A stretch of 64,000 nucleotides of DNA from Zygnema cylindricum (taxonomy: Eukaryota; Streptophyta; Zygnematophyceae; Zygnematales; Zygnemataceae): NCBI GenBank assembly GCA_037447655.1, contig JBBHKE010001182.1, positions 408,130-472,129 of the forward strand, given 5' to 3'. Shown here piece by piece: positions 3,812 through 28,070 of this stretch. Every line of letters starts with the position of its first letter. Within the stretch, counting starts at the first letter, position 1. A program made the position numbers and the translations under genes. Below the pieces are notes generated by a model. That model had not been told where the DNA came from. It worked only from the letters and a program-made list of their open reading frames with translations, and did not search any database.

Positions 3812-3877
3812 GTTCGTGTTGAAATTTATGTATTTTCTAGGTCTGTATTGGAAAAATAAATAGAGTAAGTCAACAAA

Positions 3878-3963: not shown

Positions 3964-3993
3964 TAAAGGAGATAGGCTGATTCGTAGTTTGTA

Positions 3994-4810: not shown

Positions 4811-4930
4811 CTTATTCAGTGGGAAAGTCAAAGTGGGGAATATTGTCCAAAACACATATTCAAGCTTTGCATTATGTGGTGGAACTGAGCACACAAAAGG
4901 TCTTCTCTTCACAGGGGTGAAGTTGTATTG

Positions 4931-5931: not shown

Positions 5932-6035
5932 TATTGGGGTTCTAATTGTCAAGGGATCATTCATTTGGGTTTATATCAACTTGGAATCGGCACTATCTAG
6001 ATTAGCTTCTTTTGGATCTGCGAATTCTGTGGGCA

Positions 6036-6556
6036 ATGGAGCCCATAGAATTTCAGGTTATGGGCCCACCATCTAGGGTGCCTATGTTCGATGGAACAAA
6101 CTTCACTTATTGGGAGTTTATTATGGAGGGATTGCTTTTCGAGAAGCACTTATGGGGAATTGTTTTGGGACAAGTGAGATGTCCGCCACCTGGCTTTGAA
6201 GGAGGTTACTATGGAGAATCATATGAGGCTGCCCAGAATATCAACCGGAGTTCAGATGAATCAAAAGGTGAAGGGAAAAACCTTTCCGTGGATGGGGAAA
6301 TATGGGAGATGGATAAAGGGACACTTATGGTGAGGTGGGCTATGCTCTCCGCCACAATTCACTTAGAGGGGTTATAAGTAAAACTGAAGAAAATGATAGT
6401 AAAATTTGGGAGTATAAAAACACTATAGCAAAACATCTTATACTTAGATATGTGTCTAAGTCCATAGTTATCAGTCTTTTAAGTCTTACCAAGTCTTCGG
6501 AAATATGGGAAACACTAAGGCAGATTTATAAGAGTGAGACTATTCAGAGGCAGTAG
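6036..6556 (+). pseudogene. Element A gag, N-terminal part
   Basis: Gag starts at ATG 6036 in the loop of a hairpin (6022-6054), so its first seven codons lie in the LTR and the next ones (QVMGPPSR) are the primer-binding site. It is homologous to the B and C gag starts (FTYWE; LFEKHLWGIV). A frameshift near 6340-6375 and a CAG-to-TAG stop at about 6554 separate it from the rest. Gag would form the nucleocapsid shell that packages the element RNA. Confidence 0.8.
6056..6073 (+). promoter_or_regulatory. Primer-binding site matching initiator tRNA-Met anticodon arm
   Basis: GGTTATGGGCCCACCATC directly follows the LTR end CA. The first 16 nt are the exact complement of the GGTGGGCCCATAACC region of plant initiator tRNA-Met as I know it, that is the anticodon arm and not the 3' acceptor end used by most plant copia elements. 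Drosophila copia starts its primer-binding site with GGTTATGGGCCC and uses a cleaved half tRNA. The same site occurs at 16656, 28071, 21136 (first base changed) and, on the minus strand, at 23239 and 61662. Confidence 0.85.
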
Positions 6557-6601: not shown

Positions 6602-8104
6602 ATGATAGAGTTTTGCAATGATATTGCATCGTTATATGTTGAGCTTGCTAGTGCGGGGTATGTAGAATCTGAGGAGAGAAAGATCAATACACTACTCATG
6701 AAACTCCCAGATGAGTACGAAAACATCATTTATCGTATGCAGGCAATGGATGGCTCCTCATGGACTTGGAGCTTTACCATGGGGATAATTCTTGTGAAGG
6801 AAAGCAATTTGGAGCTTCGTAGGGGAAGTGACAAGGTGAATGCATTTACAACAGGTGGTGATTGGCGGAAGCGTGATGAGAGGAACGGCGGTGACGAGCG
6901 GAAGCGTGATGAGAGGAAGAAAGACGAAGGTAAACCTTATCAGAACTTTGGTGGAAAGAGAGGGAGAGGAAAAGAAAGGGGAGCTTTGAAAAATGGTGTT
7001 TGTTTCTTTTGTAGAGAACCGGGTCACTATATGGAGGAGTGTCCTTGTTTGGAAGAACTTAGAAGTTGGAATGTGAAAGAGGAGGAAGAAGGGGAAGAGG
7101 AGAAAGAGGATGAAGAAATCTTAGAGCTTCTTCACATCGGTAGAATGGAGAAGAGAGAGAAGTACACAGAAATTACACAAAAGCAACGATGTGCTTTTGG
7201 AGGTATAAGGGAAGTAAAGGGAACGGAGGTACTTGAGGGAGTTAGAAATGATGAGGATGTCAAGGAGTGTAGAAAGTATGACTTAGAAATGAGAAAGTCA
7301 GATCTAGGATACACAAATGAAAAAGGGAAAAATAAAAATAATGAGGATAATTCTATAAATATTTGGGAAACAGAAAACTGGTTGGAAAGGGAGACTTCAA
7401 CGGATTTGGAGGAAAGGGGAGAAGTAAAACTAGAGGGGGTTTTAAAGGATAGGGGAGAAAAGAAATATTTAATGAAAAGTTTAGGGGAGGAGAAATACTC
7501 TTTGGGAATCATTATAGAAAGTGATAGTGGAAAGTATTCCATGGGAGAGAGTGAGGAAAGTTCAGAAAAGGGGGTGAGTATCATGGATAAAAATATGAGT
7601 TCGGAAGATGTAGATTTTATGAGGAACTTAGTGGGGACTCTTGATATAACGATAAATTTGGGGGGTAATGGTTTTGACATCACTAATGGGAGTGATGCCA
7701 TTTATGAAGGTGTGCTTATAAAAGGGTTAGCATCTGGGTGTGTGTTGAAGATTCGAGATGGGGCTAGTTTTTTGAATTGCAAGAGGGAAATCGGATTCTG
7801 TGTGGATGGAAAAGAGATGAGTGGGACAAAATCTTTGCTTGAATTTATGGAAAATGGTATGCTTAATAAAATGTGTGATCAACAAGATAGAATGTTTATT
7901 TCAGCTCACCTAATGGACCTTTTAAAATACGAGAGTATTCACTTAAAGTTTTATGAGGAGAAAAGAAAGAAGAAAAAGAAAAGAAGGGAAAAGAAAAAAA
8001 ATATTATATATATATTTTTAGTGGGAGTTGAAAAAGAAAGTATACTAGAAAATAAGGGGAGTGTTGAAATTTATGTATTTTCTAGGTCTGTATTGGAAAA
8101 ATAA
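6602..8104 (+). CDS. Element A gag C-terminal half fused to decayed RNase H remnant (500 aa open frame)
   Basis: Residues 1-80 are the end of the gag core (MKLPDEYENIIYRMQ). A basic stretch follows, then a CCHC knuckle (CFFCREPGHYMEEC, about 137-150) and RCAFGGI, which in family B stands just before the protease. Here protease, integrase and RT are gone. The tail aligns weakly but collinearly with RNase H: NLGGNGFDITNGSDAIYEG against HLGGNNTDITTWSDASYGD, and GMLNKMCDQQD against the CDNQAA segment. The STMEAEYMA motif is not recognisable, so catalysis is unlikely. It ends in Lys-rich sequence inside the 3' LTR. The frame stays open for 500 codons while nearby pol copies are full of stops. The start is simply the first in-frame methionine after a stop. 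Confidence 0.7.
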   Translation: MIEFCNDIASLYVELASAGYVESEERKINTLLMKLPDEYENIIYRMQAMDGSSWTWSFTMGIILVKESNLELRRGSDKVNAFTTGGDWRKRDERNGGDERKRDERKKDEGKPYQNFGGKRGRGKERGALKNGVCFFCREPGHYMEECPCLEELRSWNVKEEEEGEEEKEDEEILELLHIGRMEKREKYTEITQKQRCAFGGIREVKGTEVLEGVRNDEDVKECRKYDLEMRKSDLGYTNEKGKNKNNEDNSINIWETENWLERETSTDLEERGEVKLEGVLKDRGEKKYLMKSLGEEKYSLGIIIESDSGKYSMGESEESSEKGVSIMDKNMSSEDVDFMRNLVGTLDITINLGGNGFDITNGSDAIYEGVLIKGLASGCVLKIRDGASFLNCKREIGFCVDGKEMSGTKSLLEFMENGMLNKMCDQQDRMFISAHLMDLLKYESIHLKFYEEKRKKKKKRREKKKNIIYIFLVGVEKESILENKGSVEIYVFSRSVLEK

Positions 8105-9197
8105 ATAGAGTAAGTCAACAAAGGCAGCCTGCTTCTTGCTCCAATCTCTCCGGTCCCCATACTTGTTGCAGTCACTGAAGACCAGAGAGAGCTAGTGCCA
8201 TGGCTGTCTAAAGGGGATAGGTAGTCAACGATGGCATATCTGGGGTACAATAGGTATTTATAAAGTAGAAGTAGAGAGTTCTAACAAACTAGCAAATAAC
8301 AAAAAACTGCTCTAGACCAGATTTGAACCATAGTGTGTGGTTATATTTGTAGAAGTAAGCCTTAACCAATAAGGCGTTATCGAAACGATACACGTGACGG
8401 GTTTTATAAATACATAAACATTAACAGACTAACTAATTAACAGCAGACTAACCAAAAGGAGCAATTCCAGCATGTACGCGAATCTGAACCGTGTAAAACA
8501 TGTTTTGATCTGACGGTCAGCATTATAGCCGCCACGCGAAGTGAGCTTTTGGCGGCATACGGAGATAGCGTCAAGCGGTGCCACGTGGCGCCACATTATT
8601 TCATACCCGAGAAGATGGGAAGAGGAACCATGGCTTCCGATTTAACAGGTGTCACCTTGTAGACCTTGTCGTACAATGGTCGTACAATAAGTACATCGCC
8701 CATTATACCTTCTTGTACTATATAGTGTTCCTATTGGACTAGGGTGTAGTAGTAGGTAGTCGTGAGTAGGCAGACCAAGACTTAGTGATATTTAGGTACC
8801 CCTCTCTAAGAGAGCTTGTAACTATAAAGGTCATCTTTGACCAGCCATAACTTAATGCTCGGGTGAGCAAATTCAGTGATTCTTTTTGCTGCGGACTCAG
8901 GGGAGTCCAAGCTACACAGAGGTGTAGTCGGTCAGAGTCTTTGCGTGCCAAGGTGGCACTTATTCAGTGGGAAAGTCAAAGTGGGGAATATTGTCCAAAA
9001 CACATATTCAAGCTTTTCATTCTGTGGTGGAACTGAGCACACAGAAGGTCTTCCCTTCATAGGGGTAAAGGTGTATTGGGGTTCTAATTTTCAAGGGATC
9101 ATTTATTTGGGTAAATATCAACTTAGAGTCGGCACTATCTAGATTAGCTTCTTTTGGATCTGCGAATTCTGTGGGCAATGGAGCCCATAGAATTTCA
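8062..9197 (+). repeat. 3' LTR of element A
   Basis: It starts TGTTGAAAT after the polypurine tract AAATAAGGGGAG and ends GAATTTCA at 9197 (1136 bp). It has the stem-loop (8123-8208), the GTAC module (8667-8698), the hairpin leader (about 8802-8958) and the AUG hairpin (9164-9196). The tRNA-like block is deleted relative to the 5' LTR, and no solo LTR is present, giving the empty site for 4931-5931. Confidence 0.85.
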
Positions 9198-9365
9198 GTT
9201 TGGACCAAATATCTCATGACTCTCTTGGCTGCCTCCCAACCTCTCTTCTTAGGTTCGTTAAGACTCCTACTGAGGACTCCTACTGCTGCCGCTATGTCTT
9301 TCTTTTTATTTTTTATAAAGTAGATCAATCTTCCTACTACTTGTCTATAACGAATAGACTCCCTC
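9198..9365 (-). pseudogene. Family C RT fragment
   Basis: The minus strand encodes the segment from about IPYRQVVGSLIYF to RDWEAAKRVIRYL of copia RT, continuing the RNase H piece at 3280-3811 across element A. A better copy is at 25370-25579. Homology stops abruptly near 9360 at a CCCTCCCTCC tract. Confidence 0.75.
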
Positions 9366-10009: not shown

Positions 10010-11849
10010 CCTGGGGGAGCACATTGAGGGAGTTCCAAAACACGGCGACAATCCATAACCCCAATAGCCGATCTGAGGATAATGGAAGCCTGCATTCGCT
10101 GTAAAACCACCGATAAGCGTTGACGATTAAAAGAAGTAAGGACTGAACGAGGAGGGCTCCCAGGTCCTCGACGCTCGAAAGCACGTCAAGCACAAGTAGG
10201 GAGAAACTCGTCTAGCGCAACACCCAAACATCTAAAGATCTCGACGGCCATCCGAATAAAGTCATCCATAAGGTCTCAGTGGGCATAATCACACTCTTTC
10301 GCCTTAGCGGCATCACGAGCTACCACCCCAACATGTCGAGCAGCTTGACCAACAACTATAGCTGAAGTAGGGTTCGCCAACAGGTCGAGCCGCCTGAGCA
10401 ACAACTGTAGCTGAAGTAGGGTTCGCCAGAACAATATCACCAAAGATGCGACGGGCACCATCAAGCAAAACAACATCGATCCGACGGGAGGGAATAATAT
10501 GAGAAACCTCTCGACGCATAGAAGAGCCCCCTTACGAAGACATAGTCGCAACGGCGTCGTGAATAGTGTCGTGAGCCTGGATCAAATCTCCCCCATGGGA
10601 GCAACGAAGCAAATGCACACCACCGAGCCCCAAGACACGACCACATGCACAAACAAGAGAGCCAAGTAAAGGAGGATAGGGGAGTCCAAGGCGAAACCGG
10701 AGGGCGGTGGTGTATTAAGCAAGTGAAAATCGAAGAGTGGACAAAATAGGTGTGGCGAAAAGCGAAGACCCAAAACCAGGTCCACCACAAGAGAGAAGAC
10801 GGGCAAGCGAAGAATCAGAGGAGAAACGCCTTGAGAAGGTCGAATTTAATGGCGGCGACAACCCGATCGGAAATCGATTCGTGGACACGCTCAACAAATT
10901 TTGTATTAAGGGTGGAGAAAATCGGCACATCCACTAGGGCATGGGGAGGAAGAGAACGTGACGCGTCCAATAGAGATCGTTGGAAGGTGAACGCACCGTT
11001 TAAAACCCGGGGGACAACAGTAGTTAGAACAGGGGGTGTCCCCAACCAAGAAACGCGAAACTAAGTAGTGGCAATAAGACACCAACTTCCCAAATAGGCA
11101 GCGCGAGCAACACGAGCAGTCAATAATAGACCAAATCCCCCAGTAGAGGCAGGGTGGGATGCCCGAATAAGAACCGATGGCCCACAGTCGCGATCAAATG
11201 CCCCACGACCTAACGGAGTGTTGAGAACGTCCATGAGGCGATCCTCAAAAGCCGAGAGAGAGGAGACAAACGTCGAGGTAGGAGGGGAAGTACGAGTAAG
11301 GTAAGAAGGGCGGTGGGGAAAACACTTGGTTAACATAGCAAAAGCAACTTGGGGATCGGGAAGGTGAGGAAGGTCGTCGACTTCGGCCTGATCTGTCTGT
11401 AAAGCATCATGAAGGTATTGGGTCACGAAAGTATCCGAACCAAGGGGGCAACCAAGCACACGAATGCCATCGGAGGGAGAAGGGGTTTGACAACCACAAG
11501 TGGGAGTAAAGGAACATGGAATAGCCTGAGGAGACAAAATAAAATACGACGGATGGACTAAAAGGTTGAGTGCGGCTAAACGTTCCTTGAAAAAATCATA
11601 TGCCAACATGACTTTTTCTATGGGCCCAATAATGTGCGTATCATCTGCAACCGAAGGGAAAAGGCAAGAAGGGAAGGCAGCTGGAGAGGCACGAAGGACC
11701 CGATAATGGGCAAGGGCGAACAAAGGTCCGCCGAGAGGGTCGCCGTACGAGATAGGAATGAGATCACCATCGGCCGAGAAGGAAAGGCTGCTTGTCAAAG
11801 AATAAAAATCCCTCACAAAGGGGAATACTTGGACACTCGGAGATGGAGC
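10010..11849 (-). pseudogene. Non-LTR-type reverse transcriptase, C-terminal half, with endonuclease-like domain
   Basis: The minus strand encodes GDPLGGPLFALAHYR, then VADDTHIIGP (variant of the RT catalytic FADD box, about 11640), then a thumb/connection region (11816-11061). Further on, in shifted frames, come REVSHIIPSRRIDVVLLDG and DIVLANPTS (about 10519-10400) and KAKECDY (near 10280). These look like the PD-(D/E)XK endonuclease found C-terminal to RT in some elements. The last recognisable part is FNRQRLSVVLQRMQASIILRSA (about 10125-10060). A tandem duplication of about 60 bp near 10360-10425 contributes to the frame breaks. The missing N-terminal half is at 24245-24834. Confidence 0.7.
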
Positions 11850-12851
11850 TGCAATTCAGTGTCCTCCATTGGACTACAAAATTCCAAGAAGCCTCTAGAT
11901 AGTTTTTAACTAACCCACTTTCAATGGCAACCACTGCTGCCCAAGCAAACAAGTTGAAAATCTGACTGCACCCTTGTGCAGCGGGTGCAGCCTAGACTCC
12001 TCTGAGTCTGTAGGAAAAAAAATCTTTGAAACTGCCCAACCAGGCGATTAGTTATAGTGTGGCAAAGATGCCAATATATAGAAACTCTCAAAGAGAGAGA
12101 AGACCATCTACCAGATTTTTCTAAGTCCTAGCTCCCTCTCACAATCCCTATCTACTGACTGTACGAACCAATCCGATACTGTACAGTACAAGAAAGTACT
12201 ACTGCCGATGTACTTTTTGTACGACCTTTGTACGACAAGGCCATTAAGCGGACGCGTGTCCACTTTTCACTCGTCCGTACGTTTTTCGGAATTCCCGCCA
12301 CCGAATATTATCTCTCCACGTGGCACCAGGTCATGCCACGTCACAAAATGCCAATGTGACCATTCCACGATCTCGACGATGATGTGCGCCGTTGGATAGA
12401 ATTTAGTATTTGATCTCAACCGTTGAAACAAATGTGTGATTCATTTGTTTCGTGCGGAATCATATATGTACTTTATTTAACTCGTTCTATGTATCTATGT
12501 TTGTATTTTCGTTTATCGAAATAGCTACCGTAACATTGTTTAAATATTTATCAAACCCTATATCACTGGTTAGAGCAAATGGCTATGCCATGCTCTACCG
12601 GTCGGAGGTTCGAGTCCTGCCGGACTCAACCTTTTGTTGAGAGTGACTTAGGTCACTCTTATATTGCACAGGTGGAGCTGAGGCAGCCATGGCTCCACTA
12701 CTCTCTCTCTCTCTCTCTCTCTTTCAGTGACTAGATTAAGTATGGGGGATGGGGAGAGAGAGGTGGAGGCTGACTGCTTTCGCTCTCTTTTCTATTGATA
12801 TATTTAGACCTAGAAAATACTTATATTAAATATTTTTAGTTATTTTCAACA
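11850..12851 (-). repeat. Solo family C LTR (LTR b) with mismatched flanks
   Basis: On the plus strand it reads TGCAATTC...TTTTCAACA, 1002 bp. It is flanked by GGAGC on the left (11845-11849) and TCTCG on the right (12852-12856). GGAGC also flanks LTR c (24240-24244) and TCTCG flanks LTR a (2263-2267). No polypurine tract or primer-binding site adjoins it, so it is a solo LTR. It contains the stem-loop, tRNA-like unit, GTAC cluster and hairpin leader. Confidence 0.9.
12563..12646 (+). ncRNA. tRNA-like Pol III unit in LTR b
   Basis: A-box-like CACTGGTTAGAGC, B box GGTTCGAGTCC (12607-12617) and TTTT at about 12642. The bases upstream of the A box, where the acceptor stem would be, are partly deleted relative to the copies at 5652 and 23951. 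Confidence 0.5.
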
Positions 12852-13639: not shown

Positions 13640-14324
13640 CCGCTGGTTCGCCATCTTGCTTTCTCAATATAGTCGTTCCAACTCCAATACGAATGATTGA
13701 TATAGCCCCGTGAAATCAAACGTTAACACTGTTGTATTGGCGATCCACGGTAAACTGTTCTGTCATAAATCTGCATGTCACCCTGGAATGCCGTACCGTT
13801 GAGACTGGAAAAGTTGGAAGGTAGGCCATAAACAAATGTCAGCCACACTATCTAGCTATTGTTTGTCCTAAAAAGCACAGTACACCTATCTAGCCCAAAG
13901 TACTTCGGTCTTTTATCTGGTCCGTCCCTCCGTCTCTACCAATCACGTGTCCGTACGACCATCCTGGTCTCCTGCCAATCTGTCGCTTTATGAAGCAGGC
14001 CTGTACCAGATTTACGATGAATCCAAACGTCAAAGTCTTCACAATTTCTCAAAGTCATCACAATTTTGGCAGAAGATTACATCATTGTATGGTGTACTAT
14101 TTTGTTTTGCGCTCAAGACTGTACCGGACTTTGCTCACTATGCTATTTAGAATTTTAGACTGTTGTTGTTAGACTGCAGGAGCTGGTCAGGAAACTGCCT
14201 CATGGAGTAAGAGCAGGGAGATATTGCTGGCGGCAATTGGTAGGTCAGTGAAACGTGGTGACTTGCAGTGAGTTAATTTGAAGTGAGTTTGTTGGTTTTT
14301 AGGTCTTTTTGAACTTGTGTGTCC
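13640..14324. other. Third repeat unit, then intergenic DNA
   Basis: The third 68-bp-type unit runs to about 13710. From there to 14324 I see no gene; the open frames at 13947-14172 overlap each other and match nothing I recognise. Confidence 0.5.
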
Positions 14325-15690
14325 CAAAATATATTTGCCTCCCCTAAATCTTTCATGTCAAATCTGCTTCTAAGGACTTTCTTTAACCTATTGATCTTTT
14401 CCAAAGATTTACTTAAAACCAGCAAATCATCCACATAAATTGCAATAAAGATCACACCATCCTCATCTTCAAACATATAGATAGAATTGTCTGAGCTGAT
14501 CTGGATATATCCCAGACCAGTGAGAAACTCATCTAGTTTGTTATTCCACTGTCGGGGAGCTTGCTTAAGTCCATATAAGGACTTTATGAGTCTGCACACT
14601 TTGCTCTCTTCCCCAACCTGCACAAACCCCTCTGGTTGCCACATGAAGATTTCTTCCTTTAACTCACCATTGAGGAAGGCGGTCTTAATATCCATCTCAT
14701 GGATTTCCATGTCTTCTGCTGCTACTAGACTGAGGAAAATCCTTACTAATGGGAAACGAACAACTGGAGCAAATGTCTCCTCATAGTCAATCCCCTCCTT
14801 TTGGGTAAACCCCTTTGCTACCAACCGAGCCTTATATCTTTCAATGGTATTATCTAGGTTCATTTTTAGCTTGAATACCCACTTACATCCAATAGATTTT
14901 GTGTCTGGAGAACAATCCGTTAGCTCCCAAGTATTTGCTTCCATGATCGAAGCCATCTCATAATTTATAGCTCTAATCCATCTGTCATTTTCTGGGTTGT
15001 TTACTGCCTCCAAGAATGACTGAGGCTCATCAGGATGAGATAGCTTAATTACCTTGTGAGCAGCCTGTTTCTCTTGTATCCTTTTGCTGCTCCTTCTCCC
15101 CCCTTAAAACTCTGACGCTGGAATAGATGGAAGTCTACGGTTTCTCCTTACTATCTCATTCCCTCCCCAATCCATGGAAGATGATTCCGGTTCCTCCTCT
15201 TCTGTCTTCTCAAAGTCCATAGGAATATGTGACGTAACTCTCCTGTATCTTCGATCTCCCTTGAATTTGCAATCATTGTCACACTCATGTCTTTTCGGGA
15301 AAAACAGAGTTCTCCTCACTTTCAGACTTAAACCTGATTCTTATCTTCTTGGTATATTTGAAGGGGTCAATTGACTTTCCTTCATCCATGACAACTAGAT
15401 GTTTGACGAGAATGATATTTTTCTTTGCTTAGTCATAGACTCTATATCCCATGACATCTTCATCATATCCCACAAAATATCCAGGTTTTCCCTTAGCATC
15501 AAGTTTCCAGTTTTTCTTATCCGTATCTAGACTGTAAACTTGGCTACCGAATACTTTAAGGTGAGAGATATCAGGTTTCCTTCCAGCCCATCTCTCATAA
15601 GGTGGCAAACCTTTGACTTATGAGGTAAGGACTCTATTCTTAATGTAGTTGGCACAGTTCATGGCTTCTGCCCAAAATCTCTTAATGGTT
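14325..15690 (-). pseudogene. Family C pol fragment: RT and end of integrase
   Basis: The minus strand encodes copia RT from WELTDCSPDTKSIGCKWVFK through RYKARLVAKGFTQKEGIDYEETFAPVVR, MDIKTAFLNGEL, YGLKQAPRQW and YVDDLLVLSKS (catalytic Asp pair), in one 246-residue frame (15013-14273). Above it are integrase C-terminal pieces (RFWAEAMNCANY near 15680). Coding homology ends near 14325, exactly where the intervening block begins. Element B interrupts it at about 15690. The region is nearly identical to 25740-27105. Confidence 0.85.
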
Positions 15691-15735
15691 ATTTTAGTAT
15701 CTTCTAGGTTTTGCAAAATGCAGAAAAGAAGCCGA

Positions 15736-15821
15736 GGCAGTCTGCCTCTAACTTCTCTCTTCAGCTCCCACACTTGTCGCAATCACTAAAGGTTGAAGAG
15801 GGAGCTAGAGCCATGGCTGCC
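15736..15821 (+). other. Conserved U3 stem-loop of family B
   Basis: Arms GGCAGTC (15736-15742) and GGCTGCC (15815-15821) pair with one wobble; inside, CTCTCTTC pairs with GAAGAGGGAG and CTCTA with TAGAG. The loop CCCACACTTGTCG...ATCACTAAAGG (15767-15792) is nearly the loop of families A, C and E although the inner arms have different bases. Confidence 0.65.
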
Positions 15822-15867
15822 TATGCTGATTAGAGATAGAGTTACGCGTGTTAGATTTTGGTAGATT

Positions 15868-15960
15868 CACCAAAATAGAACTTGATGGATCCAGGATTTG
15901 AACCTGGTACCTGCGGTTCATTATAGTAGCCGGTAGCCTTAGCTAATTAGTCTGATATCA
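15868..15960 (-). ncRNA. tRNA-like Pol III unit, antisense to family B LTR
   Basis: On the minus strand TAATTAGCTAAGGC (A-box-like) is followed by the B box GGTTCAAATCC (complement of 15894-15904) in a perfect 5-bp T-stem CCAGG...CCTGG, then TTTT (complement of about 15871-15874). It is the best T-arm of the set. The acceptor arm pairs only partly. A copy lies at 27282-27374. Confidence 0.6.
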
Positions 15961-16404
15961 AGGTTGAGGATATAGGGTTTGATATTTATTTAAATGTTAA
16001 CATTTAGGTTATTTAATTTAACGGGATATTTAGACATAGACACAGTTTGTAAAGTACGGCGTACGGAACATCCGAAACGGATACTGCGCAGTTTGTAATC
16101 CGGCTTAATCGGGCGGCCACGAAGGATGCCGAGATCACGGAATAGCTTTTCGGCGACTTGCGGTTGACGTCACATCGATTGCCACGTGGCAAAATCACAT
16201 TGGATTACGACATCTCCGGGGATTCTAGGAACGAATCCAAAAATGACATGTGTCCACTTGTTGGCCATGTCGTACAATGGTCGTACATAAAGTACATCGT
16301 CACCTGTACCTTTATGTACGATACACTATTATTATTGGTGTCGTACTTCAGTAGATAGAGTTTTAGAGAGAGATAGGACTTAGAAAAATTTGATAGATTG
16401 GACC

Positions 16405-16561
16405 CTCTCTCCCAGAGAGCTTCTGTACAAAAGGTCAACTTTGACCTTTCATAACTTACTGCTCAGGGGAGCAAATTCAGAGATTCTTTTTGCTATAGAC
16501 TAGGGGAGTCTTGTCTTTACAAGGGTAAAGGTGGTTAGAGTTTTTTACTGCCAGGGTGGCA
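16405..16561 (+). promoter_or_regulatory. Tandem hairpin leader, family B
   Basis: Hairpins in order: CTCT...AGAG (16405-16419), GGTCAA-CT-TTGACC (16433-16446), TGCTC-AGGG-GAGCA (16460-16473), GACT-AGGG-AGTC (16498-16510, one C lost; intact at 27912-27925), CTTTAC-AAGG-GTAAAG (16515-16530) and TGCC-AGGG-TGGCA (16549-16561). It is the same series as at 4654-4810 with compensated changes. Confidence 0.75.
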
Positions 16562-16635
16562 GTTATTCTTTCTGAAAGACAAACGGGTCAGGGTTATTTT
16601 AGAGGATTAGTGTGAGCTACCTACTCTGAGGTCCT

Positions 16636-17785
16636 ATGGAGGTCTCAGAGTTACAGGTTATGGGACCACCATCTAGGGTACCCATATTCAATTGAGGTGG
16701 TTTCATATACTGGGAAAGTATGATGAAAGGAGCTCTATGTGAGAAACGGTTTTGGGGAATAGTGAGTGGACGGGTGAGACGTCCATCTAGTCTTGGGATA
16801 CCTCCAGGGTTTACAGGAGGCAGATTCACTAGAGATGCAGATTCATCTTCAACAGAGGAGACAAAGGAAGGAGAGGTGGTGGACAAAGGAAAAGAGAAAG
16901 AGACGGTCACACCAATAGCAACCGGTTCGGCATTCATGTCACCTATTCCGAGGAACGAGGAGAATGATATCGATACGTGGGACTTCAACAATATGGCGGC
17001 TAAGCACTTCATCCTCCACCATCTTCCTCAAGCGCTTGCATCTCCCCATTTGCAGGTAGAGAGGGCATCCGATCTTTGGATGGCTTTCATAGAGATGTAT
17101 CGAAGTGGTACGATTCAGCAACAACAGTTGGCTGATCAGAAAATTAAGGAGTATGTATACAAAGGGTGGAAGATGTTAGATTTTTGCAATGAGCTTGCTA
17201 CACTTTTCATGGAACTAGAACGTGCTGGAAAAGTATTTAGTGAAAAGGAAAAGGTTAACTGTTTACTGATGAAGTTACCCGAGGAGTTCGACAACATAGT
17301 CAACCGTGTACAGGACTTGGCGGACTCAAGGTGGATTTGGAATTTAGTGGTAAGGATGATTCTCGTTCGGGAGAATACAATTGGGATCCGAGGGGGAGGA
17401 AAGAGTGGCAAGCTTTGGCAGCCGGGACCGGTTGGAGAAACAATGATTCCAGAAAACAAGTTGGAAATTATCGAGGGGAGGGGCAGAAAAATGAGACCGA
17501 GGAGTTCGGGCCAAGGACTCCCAAGGGATTGTGCCAATTTGTAAGAAACCCGGGCACTATATGGTTGAATGCACTAAGTTAACCGAGATGCGGTTAAAGG
17601 AGGGCCGGACTGGTGGACCCCCGAGAGGAAAGAAAAAGGCCCTTGTGACACAGGTACATGAGGCGGAATCTGAGGACGAGGACGATGAACTCCTATTGGA
17701 TGAGGAGTTGGAAGCGAAAAACGAGGTAGAAATTCCACGAAAGCAGAAATGTGCTTTCGGTGGATTGAAAGGTGAAGAAGGCTAG
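16636..17785 (+). pseudogene. Element B gag
   Basis: ATG 16636 lies in the loop of the hairpin 16624-16650 and gives MEVSELQVMGPPSRVP. A GGA-to-TGA stop follows at about 16692; the copy at 28051 is open there. The core includes AAKHFILHHLPQALASPHL, IEMYRSGTIQQQQLADQ and MKLPEEFDNIVNRVQD. A frameshift near 17520 precedes the CCHC knuckle CKKPGHYMVEC (about 17533-17566). It ends at CAFGG just before the protease. Confidence 0.85.
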
Positions 17786-20700
17786 ATTGTATATTCAGGT
17801 GCATCCATGCACATGTGTAAAGATAAACACCTGTTCACTAAGATAAGAAAAATTCCCACCGTAGAGATAGAGTACAGGGATGGGAGGATAGTCACTACTA
17901 CTCTTGTAGTATCAGTAGATCTAAAAGTGTTAGTAGAAGAAAAGACATCTATAGTTACATTCTCCGATGTCTTATTTATTCATGAGCTGAACAAAAACCT
18001 CATCTCTACGTCTGTATTAGATGATACGTGTTTTGATACTAGCACTAGAAAAGGAGTCTTTACTGCTACTTTTGAGGAGGAAGTTTATTTTACTGCTGAA
18101 AAAGGTAGCTAAGGGATGTTTAGGTTGATTTTAAGCAATGAAAAGAAGAAACTTTACTATGCTGGTGTTCATGATATAATGATGTGGCATAAGAGGCTTG
18201 GGCATGTGAATCTAGATAAGTTAAGAGAGATGAAAAAGATGGGAGTAGTGGAAGGGATTCAGTTCAGTGAAAGTGAGAATCTAAGTGATTGTAGTGGATG
18301 TGCTCAAGGTAAAGCACACAAGTTACCCTTCCCAAAAACTGTCACCTATAAGGGAGAAAAGATTCTAGATTTAGTACACACAGATATTAGGGGACCGGCC
18401 AGAGTGCCATCACCCGGGGGGAAGAGATTTATGATGATTATCACTGATGATTGGTCTTGGTATTCCAGGGTGTATTTTTTGAAAAATAAGTCAGAGGCTC
18501 AGGAATGTTTTAAACAATATAAAGTATGGAGTGAAAAACTCCATTAAACCTCAATCAAGAGAGTAAGGAGTGACAATGGTGGAGAGTATACCTCTAACCA
18601 GTTTGAGGATTTTCTGAGAGAAGATGGAGTGCAACACCAAAAGACAATTCATGAAAATCTTGAGCAGAATGGTGTAGCTGAAAGATTAAATAGAACACTG
18701 AGTGATAGTGCTAGGAGTATGCTGTCCGATAAGAAGATAGGAAAGAAGTTTTGGGCCGAAGCAATGAACTGTGCAAATTATCTCAAAAATAGAGTTTTTA
18801 CTTCAGTAGTAAAAGGCCAAACACCCTATGAGAGATGGACAGGCCGAAAACCAGATGTTTCACACTTAAAGGTTTTCGGTAGTCAAGTGTTCAGTTTAGA
18901 CACAGATCGGTCAAACTGGAAGTTAGACCCAAAAGGAAAACCAGGATATCTACTAGGATATGATGAAGATGTAAAAGGATATAGAGTCTATGATCTCAAA
19001 AGAGAGGATTTTATCCTAGTGAAGCATCTAGTGGTTATGGATGAAGGAAAATCCATAGATCCCTTTAAACATACAAAGATAGTCAAAATCAGATTTGAGT
19101 CAGAAAATTCTGATGACTTTGAGCTTCCGAACAATCCAAGATTTCAAGAAGATGATGATCTTGCAGGTACGGATCAGATCAAGAAGGTACCAAATGTGGA
19201 ACCCCTAGTATTAACTCCAACCGAAGCCGAAAACGTGATGGAAATCGACCCGGAATCAAAGGATAGGGGAGAAGTAGAAACTGTGCGGAAGAATGCAAGA
19301 GAACCATCTATTCCGACAACCGAGTTTGAGGGAGGAAGAAGAAGCAGCAAAAGACTGCAAGAGAGACAAGTTAACAATAAGGTAACCAAACTGTCTCACC
19401 CCGATGAACCTCAAACTTATAATGAGGCAATGACTTGTCCTCAAAGAAATCGGTGGAAGACAGCCATTAATGAGGAGATGGCTTCAATTATGGCGGCCGA
19501 TACATAGGAATTGGTGGTTTGTCCTCTTGATAGGAAGCCAATTGGGTGTAAGTGGGTATTTAAGCTAAAACTCAACCCGGATAACACCATTGAGCGCTAC
19601 AAGGCTCGGTTAGTGGCGAAGGGATTTACCCAGAAAGAGGGAATTGACTACAAGGAGACTTTTGCTCCGGTCGTCAGGTTTCCTTCGGTTTGGATACTTC
19701 TCAGTATGGCGGCAGCTGAAGACATGGAAGTGCATCAGATGGACATCAATACGGCTTTCCTACATGGAGAGTTGGAAGAGGAAATTTTTATGCGACAGCC
19801 CGAAGGATTTGTGGAGCAAGGGGAGGAAAGCAAGGTATGCCGATTGATCAAATCTTTGTATGGGCTGAAACAGGCGCCCCGGCAATAGAACAAGAAGCTC
19901 GATGAGTGTCTTACAGGCTTGGGATATATTCGAATCAGCTCAGATCACTCAATTTATTTGTTTGAAGATGAGGAAGGAATTATTTTTATTGCAATTTATG
20001 TCGATGATTTGCTTCTTTTAAGTAAATCTATGGATAAAATAAATAAGTTGAAAAATGATTTAAAGAAAGATTTGAGATGAAGGATATGGGAGAAGCAACG
20101 TATATTTTGGGAATTCAGGTAGAAAGAGACAGAGATAGAAAGATAATAAGATTAACTCAAAAAGAGGCCATTGGAAACATGTTAGAAAAATTCCAAATAG
20201 ACAAGGATAATAGTTGTACCACTCCTATGGAATTAAAGAAGGGAAGTGAGGGGAGTGAGGAAGAGGGAGTTATAATTTTAGATGATGAGGTAGGCCCGGA
20301 AGAGAAAAGATTTATGCAGACCATCCCTTATAGACAAGTAGTGGGCAGCCTTATATATTTTATGAATTGTACCCGTCCGGACATAGCCGCGGCTGTAGGA
20401 GTACTAAGTATGAGTCTGAATGCTCCCACTAAGAAAGATTAGGAGGCAGCTAAGAGAGTCCTTAGATATCTCATAGGGACTAGGGATCTATGGTTGCATT
20501 TGGGTGGGAACAATACTGACATCACCACTTGGAGTGATGCTAGCTATTGAGATGCTCCTATGAGGAGATGCACATCTGGATATGTATTGTATGTGGGTGA
20601 TGGGGCTTGCTGCTGGAGCAACAAGCAGCAAAAGGTCATTGCTCAGTCCACCATGGAGGCTGAGTACATGGCTTCTTGCTCTGCTGTAAAAGAATTTGGT

Positions 20701-20944: not shown

Positions 20945-21135
20945 AGAAAAAAAGGGGAGTGTAGAAATTAAAGGCTATAGACTCAGGGGAGTCTTGCCTT
21001 TATAGGGGTAAAGGTGGTCAGAGTTTTTGTTTGCCAGGGTGACAGTTATTCTTGCTGAAAGACAAACGGGTCAAGGTTATCCTAGAGGCTTTGTGTGAGC
21101 TGCCTACTCTGAGGTCCTATGGAGGTCTCAGAGTT
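20945..21135 (+). repeat. Polypurine tract and internally deleted 3' LTR of element B
   Basis: AAAAAAGGGGAG is followed by TGTAGAAATTAAAGG (from 20957), which then jumps straight into the leader (ATAGACTCAGGGGAGTC, CCTTTAT-AGGG-GTAAAGG). About 800 bp of U3 are missing. It ends with the AUG hairpin and TTACA (21135). Confidence 0.8.
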
Positions 21136-21176
21136 ACAAGTTATGGGCCCACCATCTAGGGTGCCCACTTGTCAGC

Positions 21177-23259
21177 CAAAACACTATATACACTATCTCC
21201 TAGTGTTCGGTTTAACCTCTGTGCTACCCCATTTGTTTCTGGAAAATGTGGTACAATTTTTTGGTGCTGTTCTCCCTCATCTCTCAGGTATTCCTCAAAA
21301 TGGTTAGAGGTAATTCTCCCCCATTATCACTCCTTATTCTCTTAACGGGGTTTCCATGCAGCTTCTCACTCCAGGCTTTATATTCTTTGAAATAAGTTGG
21401 TGTTTCGGACTTTGTTTTTAGAAACTAAACTCTAGAGTACCTAGACCAGTCATTAGTAATTTTCAACATATACCTTTTCCCTCCAACTGAGGGTACCCTT
21501 GCTGGTCCCCAGATATCTGTGTGGATTAAATCTAGTACCTTTTCCCCTCTATATATGGCGGCTTTAGGGAAAGGAAGTCAATGAGCCTTACCTTGGGCAC
21601 AACCACTACAATCATCCACCATTTCATTATCACTGAACTGAATGCCTTCTACTACACCAAGCTTCTTCATTTCCCTCGGCCTATCAAAGTGCACATGCCT
21701 CAACCGCTTATGCCAAATCATCAACTTTGGGACACCAACATAATAAACATTCTTCTTTTCATTACTCAGGTTAAGCCTAGACATTCCTTAGCTACCGTTA
21801 TCTGCAGTGAAGTAAACTTCATTTTTATACTTAGCTGTAAAGACTCCCTTTCTAGTGAAGGTGTCATATTCTTTGTCATCTAACACAGATGTAGAGACAA
21901 GATTTTTACTCAGCTGAGGAATATAGAGCACATCTGAGAGAGTGAGTATAGAAGTCTTACCCTCCACTAAGATTTTTAAATCTATTGATCCCACTAGATC
22001 TGTAGTATCCACTCTCCCATCCCCATACTCTATTTCTATAGTAGGGATTTTCCTTAGCTTAGTGAAGAGGTCCTTGTCACGACACATATGCATGGATGCA
22101 CCTGAGTCGATGATCCATCCTTCCTGTGGAGCTTCCCGAATTGCTTCAAGGACACACTACTGTCTCCAAGGGATCTCCTTCTCCCCCAGACTCTTGTCAA
22201 GAAGAAGCTCCCCATCCTCCTCCGAGGACTCGTCCTCGATTTCTCTTGTCACTTTTGTGACCACAAACGCTTTTTTCTTCCCTCCGGAAGAACCTCCTCC
22301 ACGGTTCTCTTTGATCCTCAAATGTGACAGCTTTACACAATCCGCGATAAAGTGTCCCTGCTTTTTGCAAAAATGACAAAGGTAGTTTGGGGGCCTCGGT
22401 CCTCCAGTCTGAACTCTTTCTCCTTTGTATGGCTTTTTCGGTTCTTGTCTCCACTTCTCCCCTCCGACGGCTAGAGCTTGAACGCTCTTTCCTCCTCTCT
22501 GGATCTCAATCGTGTTCTCCTGCACAAGTATCCTGCAGACCACTGTATTCCACTTCCATGAACTATCAGTCATTTCGTACCTAGTACACTATGTTCTCAT
22601 ACTCGTCAAGAAACTTCATGATGAGAGTGTTCTCTTTCATTTTCATTGTACCTGTCCATCCGTCACTCTCCATCTCCATATACAAACAAGAAAGATCATT
22701 ACAGTAGTCTAACATCTTTCCCCCTTTGTAAGTATAATTTCCCAATTTTTGCTCTACCAACTGGAGCTCCTGAATCGTACTAGCTCTATAGATCTCTATC
22801 AAACTCACCCACAACTCCTCAGCCTTGTAAACGTGAAGATGGGGAGTTGCCAAAGCTTGAGTGAGGTGTCTCAGAATGAAGTTCTTGGCAGCCATGTTGG
22901 TGATTTCCCACTTTTGAGTGTCAGTCTCCACGGTCATCACGATCGCGGCTCTAGGTGTCGTGGGAATACCAGCAATAGGAGTAAGAGTTGTCTCCTTTTC
23001 TTTCCCCTTTTCGGACACACTGCTATCCCCATCATCTGCCTCCGTTGCTACAACAGATGTTGCTACAGAAAAACCTTATTCCACCAAACCCTGGTGGGGT
23101 TCCTTGAGGTGGACGTTTCACTTGTCCACTAACAATACCCCACTATCGTTTTTCACACAAAGCCCCTGTTATCATGGCTTCCCAATAGATAAACCATGAT
23201 CCATTGAAGATGGGCAACCTAGATGGTGGGCCTATAACCTGCAATTCTGTGTCCTCCAT
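21177..23259 (-). pseudogene. Family C gag, protease and integrase N-terminal half
   Basis: The minus strand starts at ATG 23259-23257 inside the LTR (MEDTELQVIGPPSR), then the gag core (MAAKNFILRHLTQALATPHL; IMKFLDEYENIVY), CCHC knuckle CHFCKKQGHFIADC (about 22380-22340), protease with IDSGAS (active-site Asp kept, about 22115), and integrase up to RSDNGGE (about 21340) before element B cuts it off. The frame 22573-22157 holds most of the nucleocapsid region. Stops and shifts occur near 22600, 23060 and in integrase. Confidence 0.85.
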
Positions 23260-23477
23260 TCGACTACAGAATTTAGGAAGCCTCTATGCAGTTTTTAACA
23301 AACCCACTTTCAATGGCAACCACTGCTGCCCAAGCAAACAAGCTGACAATGTGACTGCACCCTTGTGCAGCCTAGACTCCTTTGAGTCATTAGGAAAAGG
23401 AATCTTTGAAAACGCCCAACCAGGCGATTAGTTATAGTGTGGCAAAGATGCCAATATATAGAAACTCTCAAAGAGAG
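23243..23477 (-). promoter_or_regulatory. Tandem hairpin leader, family C
   Basis: In LTR order, as plus-strand positions: CTCTC.../GAGAG (23465-23477), TGGCA-TCTT-TGCCA (23440-23453), CGCCT-GGTT-GGGCG (23413-23426), GACTC-AAAG-GAGTC (23375-23388), CTGCAC-AAGG-GTGCAG (23355-23370), TGCT-TGGG-CAGCA (23324-23336) and the AUG hairpin (23243-23273). Compared with A and B, stems 1, 2, 4, 5 and 6 have different bases that still pair. Confidence 0.75.
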
Positions 23478-23950
23478 AGAAGACCATCTACCATATTTTT
23501 CTAAGTCCTAGCTCCCTCTCACAATCCCTATCTACTGACTGTACGAACCAATCCGATACTGTACAGTACAAGAAAGTACAACTGCCGATGTACTTTTTGT
23601 ACGACCTTTGTACGACAAGGCCATTAAGCGGACGCGTGTCCACTTTTCACTCGTCCGTACGTTCCTCGGAATTCTCGCGACCGAATGTTATCTCTCCACG
23701 TGGCGCCTGGTCATGCCACGTCACAAAATGCCAAAGTGACCATTCCGAGATCTCGACGATGATGTGCGCCGTTGGATAGAATTTAGTATTTGATCTCAAC
23801 CGTCGAAACAAATATCTGATTCATTTGTTTCGTGCGAAATCATATCCGTAGTGTATTTAACTCATTCTATGTTTGTATTTCCGTTAATCGGAATAGCTAC
23901 CGTAACACTTTTTGAATATTTATCAAAACCTATATACTCTAGCCAACTTT

Positions 23951-24030
23951 TACGACAGACTGGTTAGAGCGAATGGCTACGCCATGCTCTACCGCTCGGA
24001 GGTTCGAGTCATGCATGACTCAACCTTTTG
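23951..24030 (+). ncRNA. tRNA-like Pol III unit in LTR c
   Basis: A-box-like ACTGGTTAGAGC (23959-23970), B box GGTTCGAGTCA (24001-24011) and TTTT near 24026. It includes the GAGCGA-ATGGC-TAC-GCCAT-GCTC hairpin common to the C copies. Confidence 0.55.
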
Positions 24031-24244
24031 TTGAGAGTGACTTAGGTCACTCTTGTACTGCACAGGTGGAGCTGAGGTAGCCATGGCTCCACTACTCTCT
24101 CTCTCTCCTTTTGTGAGTACAACAAATATGGGGGATGGAGAGAGAGAGGTGGAGGCTGACTTCTTTTCCCTCTCTTTTCCATTCATCTATTTAGACCTAG
24201 AAAATACTTATATTAAATCCTTTTTAGTTATTTTTAATAGGAGC

Positions 24245-24837: not shown

Positions 24838-27105
24838 CTCCCCTTATTTTCTATTCCAGTTTTAACTTTTCTTTCATTCCGCATTTTTCCCTACAATATT
24901 TTAATTTGGGAGCAGGCACAGGTTTGGTAATCATGTCAGCCACCATTTCTTCATTAGATCTATAAACAAATTTCAAAATTTTATTTTCAACTTTTTCTCT
25001 TACGAAGCTCAATCTTATGTCCATATGTTTAGATTTGAAATGATGTTTTGGATTGGCTGCAATTGCAATTGCAGCTTGATTATCACAAAAGACTTCATGC
25101 ACTCCCTCCTTTATATACCCTAGTTCTTGCAACAATGACTTGACCCACATCATTTCTTTCATAGCAGAACAAGAGGCCATATACTCAGCCTCCATAGTAG
25201 ACTGAGCAACCACATTTTGTTGCTTGCTGCTCCAACAACCAGCACCTTCCCCCACATACAACACATACCCATAAGTGCATCTTCTCATAGGTGCATCCCC
25301 ATAACTTGCATCACTCCAAGTAGTGATATCAGTGTGCTCCCCTCCCAAATGCAACCATAACTATCTGGTTCAGACCAGATATCTTATGACTCTCTTGGCT
25401 GCCTCCCAATCTCTCTTCCTAGGATCGTTAAGACTTCTACTGAGGACTCCTACTGTTGTCGCTATGTCCGACCTTGTACAGTTTATAAAGTAGATCAAAC
25501 TTCCTACAACCTGTCTGTAAGGAATAGACTTCAGAAATTCTCTCTTTTCTGGACTCATCTGATCATCTAAGATTATCACTCATCCTTCTACACTCCCATC
25601 ACTTACTTTCTTCAAGTCCATAGGAGTGGTACAACTGTTTGCTTTCTCCATCTGGAATTTCTCAAACATATTATCCATTCCTTCTTTTTGAGTGAGTCTA
25701 ATGAATCTTTTCCCCCTATCTCTTTCCATTTGAATTCCCAAAATATATTTGCCTCCCCTAAATCTTTCATGTCAAATCTGCTTCTAAGGACTTTCTTTAA
25801 CCTATTGATCTTTTCCAAAGATTTACTTAAAACCAGCAAATCATCGACATAAATTGCAATAAAGATCACACCATCCTCATCTTCAAACATATAGATAGAA
25901 TTGTCTGAGCTGATCCGGATATATCCTAGACCAGTGAGAAACTCATCTAGTTTGTTATTCCACTGTCGGGGAGCTTGCTTAAGTCCATATAAGGACTTTA
26001 TGAGTCTGCACACTTTGCTCTCTTCCCCAACCTGCACAAACCCCTCTGGTTACCGCATGAAGATTTCTTCCTCTAACTCACCATTGAGGAAGGCGGTCTT
26101 AATATCCATCTCATGGATTTCCATGTCTTCTGCTGCTACTAGACTGAGGAAAATCCTTACTAATGGGAAACGAACAACTGGAGCAAATGTCTCGTCATAG
26201 TCAATCCCCTCCTTTTGGGTAAACCCCTTTGCTACCAACCGAGCCTTATATCTTTCAATGGTATTATCTGGGTTCATTTTTAGCTTGAATACCCACTTAC
26301 ATCCAATAGATTTTCTGTCTGGAGAACAATCCGTTAGCTCCCAAGTATTTGCTTCCATGATCGAAGCCATCTCATAATTTATAGCTCTAATCCATCTGTC
26401 ATTTTCTGGGTTGTTTACTGCCTCCAAGAATGACTGAGGCTCATCAGGATGAGATAGCTTAATTACCTTGTGAGCAGCCTGTTTCTCTTGAATCCTTTTG
26501 CTGCTCCTTCTCCCCCCTTAAAACTCTGACGCTGGAATACATGGAAGTCTAGGGTTTCTCCTTACTATCTCATTCCCTCCCCTATCCATGGAAGATGATT
26601 CCGGTTCCTCCTCTTCTGTCTTCTCAAAGTCCATAGGAATATGTGACGTAACTCTCCTGTATCTTCGATCTCCCCTGAATTTGCAATCATTGTCACACTC
26701 ATGTCTTTTCGGGAAAAAGAGAGTTCTCCTCACTTTCAGACTTAAACCTGATTCTTATCTTCTTGGTATATTTGAAGGGGTCAATTGACTTTCCTTCATC
26801 CATGACAACTAGATGTTTGACGAGAATGATATTTTTCTTTGCTTAGTCATAGACTCTATATCCCATGACATCTTCATCATATCCCACAAAATATCCAGGT
26901 TTTCCCTTAGCATCAAGTTTCCAGTTTTTCTTATCCGTATCTAGACTGTAAACTTGGCTACCGAATACTTTAAGGTGAGAGATATCAGGTTTCCTTCCAG
27001 CCCATCTCTCATAAGGTGGCAAACCTTTGACTTATGAGGTAAGGACTCTATTCTTAATGTAGTTGGCACAGTTCATGGCTTCTGCCCAAAATCTCTTAAT
27101 GGTTA
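24838..27105 (-). pseudogene. Second family C pol copy: RNase H, RT, integrase end
   Basis: RNase H (25354-24851) is the best in the window for this family: TWSDASYGD, STMEAEYMASCSAMKE, CDNQAAIAIAANPKHH and a C-terminal MVADMITKPVPAPKLKYCREKCG. Then RT pieces at 25579-25370, 26037-25612 (YGLKQAPRQW, YVDDLLVLSKS) and 26427-26050, and integrase C-terminal pieces to about 27100. It starts at the polypurine tract AAATAAGGGGAG, but the LTR expected next (left of 24838) is absent. From 25740 on it duplicates 14325-15690. Confidence 0.85.
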
Positions 27106-28070
27106 TTTTAGTATCTTCTAGGTTTTGCAAAATGCAGAAAAGAAGCCGAGGCAGTCTGCCTCTAACTTCTCTCTTCAGCTCCCACACTTGTCGCAATCAC
27201 TAAAGGTTGAAGAGGGAGCTAGAGCCATGGCTGCCTATGCTGATTAGAGATAGAGTTACGCGTGTTAGATTTTGGTAGATTCACCAAAATAGAACTTGAT
27301 GGATCCAGGATTTGAACCTGGTACCTGCGGTTCATTATAGTAGCCGGTAGCCTTAGCTAATTAGTCTGATATCAAGGTTGAGGATATAGGGTTTGATATT
27401 TATTTAAATGTTAACATTTAGGTTATTTAATTTAACGGGATATTTAGACATAGACACAGTTTGTAAAGTACGGCGTACGGAACATCCGAAACGGATACTG
27501 CGCAGTTTGTAATCCGGCTTAATCGGGCGGCCACGAAGGATGCCGAGATCACGGAATAGCTTTTCGGCGACTTGCGGTTGACGTCACATCGATTGCCACG
27601 TGGCAAAATCACATTGGATTACGACATCTCCGGGGATTCTAGGAACGAATCCAAAAATGACATGTGTCCACTTGTTGGCCATGTCGTACAATGGTCGTAC
27701 ATAAAGTACATCGTCACCTGTACCTTTATGTACGATACACTATTATTATTGGTGTCGTATTTCAGTAGATAGAGTTTTAGAGAGAGATAGGACTTAGAAA
27801 AATTTGATAGATTGGACCCTCTCTCCCAGAGAGCTTCTGTACAAAAGGTCAACTTTGACCTTTCATAACTTACTGCTCAGGGGAGCAAATTCAGAGATTC
27901 TTTTTGCTATAGACTCAGGGGAGTCTTGTCTTTACAAGGGTAAAGGTGGTTAGAGTTTTTTACTGGCAGGGTGGCAGTTATTCTTTCTGAAAGACAAACG
28001 GGTCAGGGTTATTTTAGAGGCTTCGTGTGAGCTGCCTACTCTGAGGTCCTATGGAGGTCTCAGAGTTACA
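27105..28070 (+). repeat. Second copy of the family B 5' LTR
   Basis: It matches 15691-16655 at a constant offset of 11414-11415 with very few differences. Its GACTC-AGGG-GAGTC hairpin (27912-27925) is intact; its TGCC-AGGG-TGGCA hairpin has a C-to-G change (27964-27976). The tRNA-like unit lies at 27282-27374 (minus) and the stem-loop at 27150-27235. Confidence 0.85.

Follow-up and report, generated by a model that had tools for sequence, protein, structure and literature searches.

A covarying hairpin array at the long terminal repeat ends of Ty1/copia elements in Zygnema cylindricum, a putative structured replication leader

We analysed 64,000 nt of Zygnema cylindricum DNA (NCBI GenBank assembly GCA_037447655.1, contig JBBHKE010001182.1, positions 408,130 to 472,129 of the forward strand), referred to below as the window. 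It contains nested Ty1/copia elements, of which five families, designated A to E, are relevant here. The long terminal repeat (LTR) ends of families A, B and C carry, in the same order, six hairpins named H1-H6 and a last one, H8, and H2-H6 and H8 are maintained by compensatory change between families. The elements are Ty1/copia LTR retrotransposons by their gag and RVT_2 type of reverse transcriptase, with Pfam matches to Retrotran_gag_2 at 16696-17544 (E 5.6e-14) and to RVT_2 at 14273-15103 on the minus strand (E 2.3e-68). Judged from sequence, the array may form a structured replication leader, in which putative Gag-read purine-loop hairpins stand beside a start-codon hairpin that would balance translation against reverse transcription. 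We give this reading about an even chance.

The array is described here from the B leader at 16396-16655 (plus strand); copies are numbered within each family. H1 (16405-16419) reads CTCTCT-CCC-AGAGAG and is also found in A and C. It shows no compensated change (0 of 5 pairs in 24 family C rows), and, being ambiguous to align, it was omitted when changes between families were counted. In folds of the full leader H1 was weak in A2, B2 and C4 (0.03-0.15) but reached 0.89 in C1. H2 (16430-16449) reads AAAGGTCA-ACTT-TGACCTTT; its 5-bp core is common to A, B and C, the outer three pairs occur in B only, and the middle pair is U-A, C-G, G-C or G-U depending on the family. H3 (16460-16473) is TGCTC-AGGG-GAGCA in B and CGCCT-GGTT-GGGCG in C. 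H4 (16497-16511), AGACT(C)-AGGG-GAGTCT, misses one C in B1, and its closing pair, G-C or A-U, is broken in 7 of the 16 rows of the genome-wide alignment described below. In the same 16 rows H5 (16514-16531), which has a purine loop, is the best-supported hairpin, with two-sided changes at four of its seven pairs. H6 (16547-16563), ACTGCCA-GGG-TGGCAGT, has such changes at three of seven pairs, and its outermost pair is kept in only two rows. H8 (16623-16651) has an 11-bp stem; its loop contains the gag ATG (16636-16638), and its 3' arm is gag coding sequence. The spacers CATAACTTA (16451-16460) and TTCAGAGATTCTTTTTGCTA (16474-16496) are unpaired, yet A, B and several further families conserve them well; no partner for them was seen by eye. 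Two further candidates were set aside: a hairpin H7 (about 16563-16584), inconsistent among copies by eye, and a splice site in the conserved TTCTTTTTGCTA spacer, whose AG, as judged by eye, A and C do not share.

The initial annotation had listed these hairpins and their stem changes in A, B and C as a selected RNA structure, and they were found in the sequence as quoted. One stem reads CTTTAC/GTAAAG in B, CTACAC/GTGTAG in A and CTGCAC/GTGCAG in C; others change from TGCTC/GAGCA to CGCCT/GGGCG and from GGTCA/TGACC to TGGCA/TGCCA. With the stems as paired in B2 taken as reference, two-sided changes remained paired in 8 of 8 cases against A2, 11 of 14 against C4 and 13 of 15 against C2, and changes on the two stem sides were associated (Fisher's test, 7e-5, 6e-6 and 6e-7, respectively). 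Comparisons of close copies (C4-C2, B2-B3 and B2-B4) gave no such association. In a tree-based null, where the inferred number of changes was placed randomly, the mean was 4.4 compensated pairs and the maximum 11 in 2000 runs, compared with 16 of 45 observed; pairing reached at most 85%, compared with 88.8% observed. For the number of pair types, the null reached the observed value in 1 of 2000 runs for the window set and in 14 of 1000 for the 16-sequence set. An alignment of H2-H6 over eight rows was made with MAFFT without structure, and the structure was drawn from B; in the row from 63470-63622, columns before 155 are pol and were masked. In this alignment 92.1% of cells were paired and two-sided changes occurred at 11 of 30 pairs, compared with 34-55% and 0-5 in controls with slid partners. 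RNAalifold, unaided, recovered H2-H6 from the eight rows.

Relatives of the leader were sought in the whole assembly (352.8 Mb, 2,689 contigs). The searches scored the best 40 of 5552 candidates for B, 40 of 6180 for A and 40 of 6324 for C, the candidates being unverified and overlapping; the C search listed 41 places, of which 20 were fetched. The flanks of scored candidates hold other families, which were seen with a covariance model and then again by sequence alone. The sequence-only search gave 84 places with at least 60 matched letters, 82 of them full inside the locus, which formed 17 clusters at 90% identity. Sixteen clusters entered the alignment; the partial window_20907 was left out and L034a was trimmed. 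The ten newer sequences among them were first noticed by the structure-aware model and refound by sequence alone. Over the 16 representatives, 86.0% of cells were paired (34-51% in slid controls) and two-sided changes occurred at 12 of 30 pairs. The covariation score was 0.273, compared with 0.123 in shuffled and 0.056-0.120 in slid alignments, and the tree null reached neither the pairing nor the compensated pairs in any of 1000 runs. Covariation persisted in this larger alignment. In family C, 983 of 1080 cells were paired over 24 rows (slid controls 33-50%). No Rfam family matched the window at its gathering score, the best sub-threshold hit in 16300-16700 having E 0.32. No relative was found in viral contigs, which gave two pattern stretches only, or in plasmids, which gave none.

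The initial annotation does not describe the start-codon hairpin as such, nor the half-tRNA primer site next to it. In families A, B and C alike, the loop of H8 contains the gag AUG. Of 12 possible H8 pairs, 12 are formed in A, 11 in B1, B2 and B4, 10 in B3, 11 in the A-like piece at 63495 and 11 in each of four C copies, which have one bulge. Over 12 rows, 132 of 144 cells were paired and two-sided changes occurred at 5 of 12 pairs (0-2 with slid partners), in an alignment made by hand with one bulge column that leans towards its own structure. Changes in the coding 3' arm alter the start of Gag (MEVSELQ, MEPIEFQ, MEDTELQ, MEVTKLQ, METTEFQ), and the non-coding arm changes in step.

The primer-binding site (16656-16670, plus strand) directly follows the LTR end (CA at 16654-16655). 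The U5 stem ends within a few nucleotides of it in A, B and C4: the gap is 4 nt in B (16651/16656), 3 in A (6052/6056) and 3 in C4 (23243/23239). The word GGTTATGGGCCCACC is exact at 6056 and 28071, has one mismatch at 16656, 21139 and 23239 (minus) and three at 61662 (minus). We take it to be complementary to the anticodon arm in initiator tRNA-Met; on this assumed tRNA sequence, the primer site is complementary to the anticodon part of tRNA-Met, the feature of the Osser, Bryco and Gymco-II lineages. The elements are most likely primed by a half tRNA-Met. No tRNA gene was found in the window. A second in-frame AUG lies inside the primer site in A, B and E; in C4 it reads ATA, and G stands there in 16 of the 20 fetched C copies (counted by hand). 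Families D and E (53967-54973 and 61660-62492, minus strand) share a GTTATGGGCC primer-site core and, as seen by eye, the word GACTTAG and a gag that starts within the LTR.

Two kinds of evidence bear on whether the array acts as RNA. Core stems contain 31 G-U cells and 5 A-C cells, or 18 and 5 when counted once per group, an excess that indicates the sense RNA. In the family C stems the counts are 102 and 33, mostly from three pairs that are G-U in most rows. Upstream AUGs are few: none in B1 and B2 (~6 expected), 1-2 in A (7-8 expected), 0-3 in C (6 expected), 2 in D and 3 in E (about 7 expected). Among 33 B copies, 28 lack any AUG in 285 nt (about 5.8 expected), and from H3 to the gag ATG of family C, 13 of 24 rows lack AUG (raw count). 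A transcription start downstream of the hairpins had been named as evidence that would contradict a leader structure. Such a start is ruled out in part. Given its place beside the primer site, H8 should belong to the transcript, and in A a TATATA ~480 nt before the LTR end lies far enough upstream to take in the whole array. By eye, a TATA-like word immediately precedes H2 in A, C, C2, L023 and L017, is partial in L034b, L037 and L038, and was not seen in B, L020, L047, L052 or L030. If this second word is used, H1-H2 may lie outside some transcripts, with H3-H8 still in the RNA.

The loops had been described as purine-rich throughout. Over the 16 rows this holds for H4 (97%), H5 (97%) and H6 (93%) and partly for H3 (69%, with GGTT in C), but not for H2 (8%); the background is 48%. 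Loops bearing GG were in excess in A2 (6 compared with 1.0, a number that none of 300 shuffles reached). One D LTR of the two also had an excess (4 compared with 0.7, p = 0.003), and the excess was not significant in B2, C1, C2, C4, E or the other D LTR. Zinc knuckles of the CCHC type are encoded in the A Gag frame (7001-7042, plus), the C gag frame (22337-22378, minus) and the E gag frame (59712, minus). The hairpin array is retained in A, the interior of which has a gag-only match. The packaging signal read by Gag that the initial annotation suggested is compatible with this retention, with the knuckles of A and C and with the G-bearing purine loops of H4-H6 and most H3.

In the proposed mechanism, the LTR end (R-U5) of this Ty1/copia group would encode a structured RNA leader of short tandem hairpins. 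Gag would bind the purine-loop hairpins through its CCHC knuckle and so select the genomic RNA. H8 would be a combined U5-AUG and U5-primer-site hairpin, placing start codon and primer site in one fold, and since ribosomes must open it, translation and reverse transcription would take turns on the RNA. The leader holds a conserved RNA structure, as a packaging signal would, with the membership of H1-H2 in the transcript uncertain. A further elaboration, which we consider quite unlikely, is a switch built on a single tRNA. The anticodon of initiator tRNA-Met would pair with two AUGs, the looped gag AUG of H8 and the in-frame one of the primer site, and the priming half tRNA would be cut in that same anticodon loop. 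In the folded state, Gag would bind the purine loops and the RNA would be primed; once opened, it would be translated from the looped AUG; and cleavage of the initiator tRNA would tip the balance.

Several observations weigh against a conserved, Gag-read array. Folded as a single sequence, the B leader shows no unusual stability (z -1.14), and in full-leader folds H6 barely formed in B2, C1 and C4 (0.00-0.05), as did H2 in A2 (0.11) and H4 in C4 (0.03). From the 16 rows, RNAalifold unaided recovered H2, H4 and H5 only, and neither H3 nor H6; one slid control (+2) equalled the structure in two-sided pairs (12), but with 34% pairing compared with 86%. In the ten newer sequences, many of which have a decayed appearance, pairing was kept in 10 of 16 two-sided changes and in only 14 of 45 one-sided ones. 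Of the six or seven hairpins announced in the initial annotation, H1-H6 are present with H8 as the seventh, but H1 lacks compensated change and H3 is lost in this register in L023, L030 and L052. Within family C, two-sided changes (6 pairs) were not above slid controls (5-9). Stems of 25 B copies vary as much as the rest (0.029 compared with 0.032, p = 0.76), by which greater stem constraint among B copies was rejected. These B leaders came from 27 of 30 loci with the anchor word (L019, L021 and L028 were out), less the window's own copies L001-L002. The covariance model gave no array match in E, which has a primer site at three mismatches, or in D, which has the GTTATGGGCC core. Finally, the knuckle is broken in the B copy read here, one cysteine being lost.

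The tests were positive between families and null within family C, so the support lies between families and not within them. Lack of a within-family signal in B and C is expected if inserted copies decay freely. Counts of hairpins exceeded those of shuffled sequences in A2 (p = 0.01), C1 (p = 0.007) and C4 (p = 0.03), were borderline in B2 (0.07) and were not raised in C2 (0.74), D (0.11, 0.09) or E (0.38, 0.42). An array in D and E was accordingly rejected, given the missing model match and these counts. The claim of a selected RNA structure is upheld by the between-family covariation, with its tree-based and slid-partner controls, by the ten added sequences and by the strand asymmetry.

Chance or an alignment artefact is an extremely improbable source of this pattern. 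The window holds few independent families, B1 and B2 being one repeat; the structure was first chosen by eye, H8 was aligned by hand, and the within-family tests of C and B were not positive. Against this, H2-H6 were aligned without structure, the tree nulls reached the compensated pairs in 0 of 2000 and 0 of 1000 runs, the slid controls fell below the structure in pairing, and 10 of 16 two-sided changes stayed paired in the ten sequences not used initially. It is also very doubtful that some of the hairpins are dyads in DNA, that is, that H1-H2 near the core promoter are protein-binding palindromes or promoter spacing. The TATA-like word that precedes H2 in the five sequences named above would suit such sites, and the H2 halves in A and B contain TTGACC, a WRKY W-box core. 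However, one H2 pair takes four types where a DNA site would keep its letters, B, L052 and L030 have no such TATA, the G-U excess in core stems requires RNA, and H3-H8 are untouched by this explanation.

Among roles as RNA, a purely translational one is somewhat unlikely. A string of weak hairpins and a looped AUG would tune scanning and start choice, with no reading by Gag, in agreement with the position of the gag AUG in A, B and C, the scarcity of upstream AUGs, as for a scanned leader, and the second in-frame AUG in A, B and E. This leaves unexplained why G-bearing purine loops are kept in H4-H6 while the stems change, and H2-H5 alone, at about -3 to -12 kcal/mol, would be weak barriers. 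That the array serves another RNA step (primer placement, first strand transfer, nuclear export or stability) is unlikely too. In A, B and C, H8 stands directly beside the primer site; the array, located in the LTR, is repeated at both RNA ends; and leader pieces joined into pol (63495-63622 and 20974-21153) look like template jumps; such jumps are, however, common in retroelements. In cauliflower mosaic virus a structured 5' leader is described as aiding RNA export in the part of a 2025 review available to us (PMC12786077), which favours this possibility. E has a primer site without the array, and primer-site sequences without it in both E and D indicate that priming by a half tRNA does not in itself require the array. 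By analogy, a packaging leader read by Gag, with H8 as a local U5-AUG hairpin, would be the likeliest use of the array.

The copies of the leader are distributed as follows. Family A (plus strand) has one LTR at 3816-6059, which is interrupted, and one at 8061-9201. The leader of its 5' LTR holds H1-H6 at 4652-4928, a C LTR interrupts after 4929, and H8 and the primer site follow at 6023-6070 (H8 of 12 bp at 6023-6052, ATG at 6036-6038, exact primer site at 6056-6070); the leader of the 3' LTR is uninterrupted (8800-9201). The A leader carries an extra segment (4827-4929 and 8975-9107). In A2 this segment includes TTCTGTG...CACAGAA, a decayed pair similar to H8, and in A1 the hairpin CTTCACAGGGGTGAAG, which resembles H5. 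Part of the array seems to have been duplicated there; the segment scores weakly with the covariance model (13-29 bits). For family B (plus strand), a second leader at 27811-28070 has H8 at 28038-28066 and the primer site at 28071-28085. The copies at 16405 and 27830 had been listed as separate; they are not independent, because the 98.9% identical 2.8-kb stretches 14322-17136 and 25736-28551, in which a minus-strand reverse transcriptase is fused with a plus-strand B LTR and the beginning of its gag, are one repeat occurring twice. A third, diverged B-like leader (B3) lies at 118-378 (plus); the B copy previously placed at 1-376 matches other leaders from about 118-151 on, but not before. A B-like fragment with H4-H8 and a primer site (21139-21153) occupies 20974-21153 (plus) at the 3' end of a pol region. 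Family C leaders are present as claimed, with the correction that they lie on the minus strand: C1 at 2265-2520, C2 at 4930-5172 in the LTR inserted within the A LTR, C3 at 11849-12110 and C4 at 23240-23495 (H8 23273-23243, primer site 23239-23225). Their LTRs are near 2267-3277, 4930-5931, 11850-12851 and 23239-24237. Families D and E begin at 47862 (minus strand). An A-like piece with H6-H8 (63495-63622, plus) lies inside a pol region; the stretch 63490-63622 stands within the integrase region of another element, between matches to 17793-18315 and 18416-18774, and looks like a template jump.

The C LTR in the first A LTR reads TGTTGA...TTGCA and is flanked on either side by a 5-bp duplication, TATTG, while the second A LTR is uninterrupted; this fixes the C LTR ends as TG...CA, both duplication and ends being read from one insertion. 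The A LTR pieces are 94.5-98.0% identical. Between the LTRs, ~2 kb hold one long frame of 515 aa with a weak gag match only (21.8 bits, under the Pfam cut-off of 27), the CCHC knuckle and then a long unmatched charged tail, and no pol match. With such an interior, family A is probably non-autonomous and borrows pol. Among the best 40 of the 6180 A candidates in the genome, four pairs of places are ~3.0-3.2 kb apart. GTAC words, the core of SBP/SPL sites, occur across the A, B, C, D and E LTRs at 1.7 to 2.9 times the composition expectation (e.g., 10 compared with 3.5 in B) and cluster just 5' of the leader (e.g., 16246-16338). Three tandem copies with 202 bp spacing lie at 47279-47859 next to a D LTR. 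An intron-free frame of 762 aa (35497-37785, minus) has a protein kinase domain in two stretches (about 153-305 and 363-495), its best solved match being calcium-dependent protein kinase 3 (E 1e-76); G+C is ~59% there and ~40% around it.

At the level of RNA signals, little is known of how LTR retrotransposons outside yeast choose RNA for packaging and share it between translation and copying. The covarying leader provides exact hairpins, loops and a start-codon hairpin as targets for probing. Should Gag read the loops, a Copia element would have a defined packaging signal; otherwise H8 would still be a testable AUG hairpin beside a half-tRNA primer site. In HIV-1 and related viruses, the leader contains hairpins SL1-SL3 with G-rich loops and a U5:AUG helix. 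The array described here is similar in its tandem hairpins with G-bearing loops and in the pairing of U5 with the gag start region. Unlike the long-range helix of HIV-1, H8 is a local hairpin with the AUG in its loop, and it stands before the primer site, not after it. The retroviral U5-IR stem adjoins the primer site, and here too a U5 hairpin ends just before that site, with the gag start codon inside and a coding 3' arm.

In plant Copia LTRs, repeated dyads are also known from Sirevirus, where, in the portion of the report available to us, they are palindromes that precede the TATA box, have CGG-CCG as their core in most cases and are likened to sites of transcription activators (PMC2829016). 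The Copia lineages Osser, Bryco and Gymco-II of plants have half tRNA-Met primer sites (PMC6317226), and the elements studied here resemble them in this site and in Copia gag and reverse transcriptase; leader hairpins are unmentioned in the accessible part of that paper. The 2025 review of plant elements (PMC12786077), in its accessible part, treats the sharing of RNA through capping and dual promoters and names no packaging structure for a plant retrotransposon. Titles and abstract openings in the open-licence literature gave no covarying hairpin array in a Copia leader, which is weak evidence of absence as subscription papers were mostly outside this scope. Closer parallels in function come from Ty1, the 5' RNA domain of which serves translation, packaging and initiation of reverse transcription according to the text available to us (PMC5454406). 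The leader described here would likewise combine translation, packaging and priming in one 5' region of a Ty1/copia element, with roles inferred from sequence; the title of the Ty1 paper names kissing loops for dimerisation. In mouse mammary tumour virus, Gag binds looped purines and the primer site, and these are needed for packaging, as stated in the part of the study available to us (PMC8096270). The two systems are alike in purine loops and primer site, and the present one, known from sequence alone, is a simple row of hairpins at the end of a Copia LTR.
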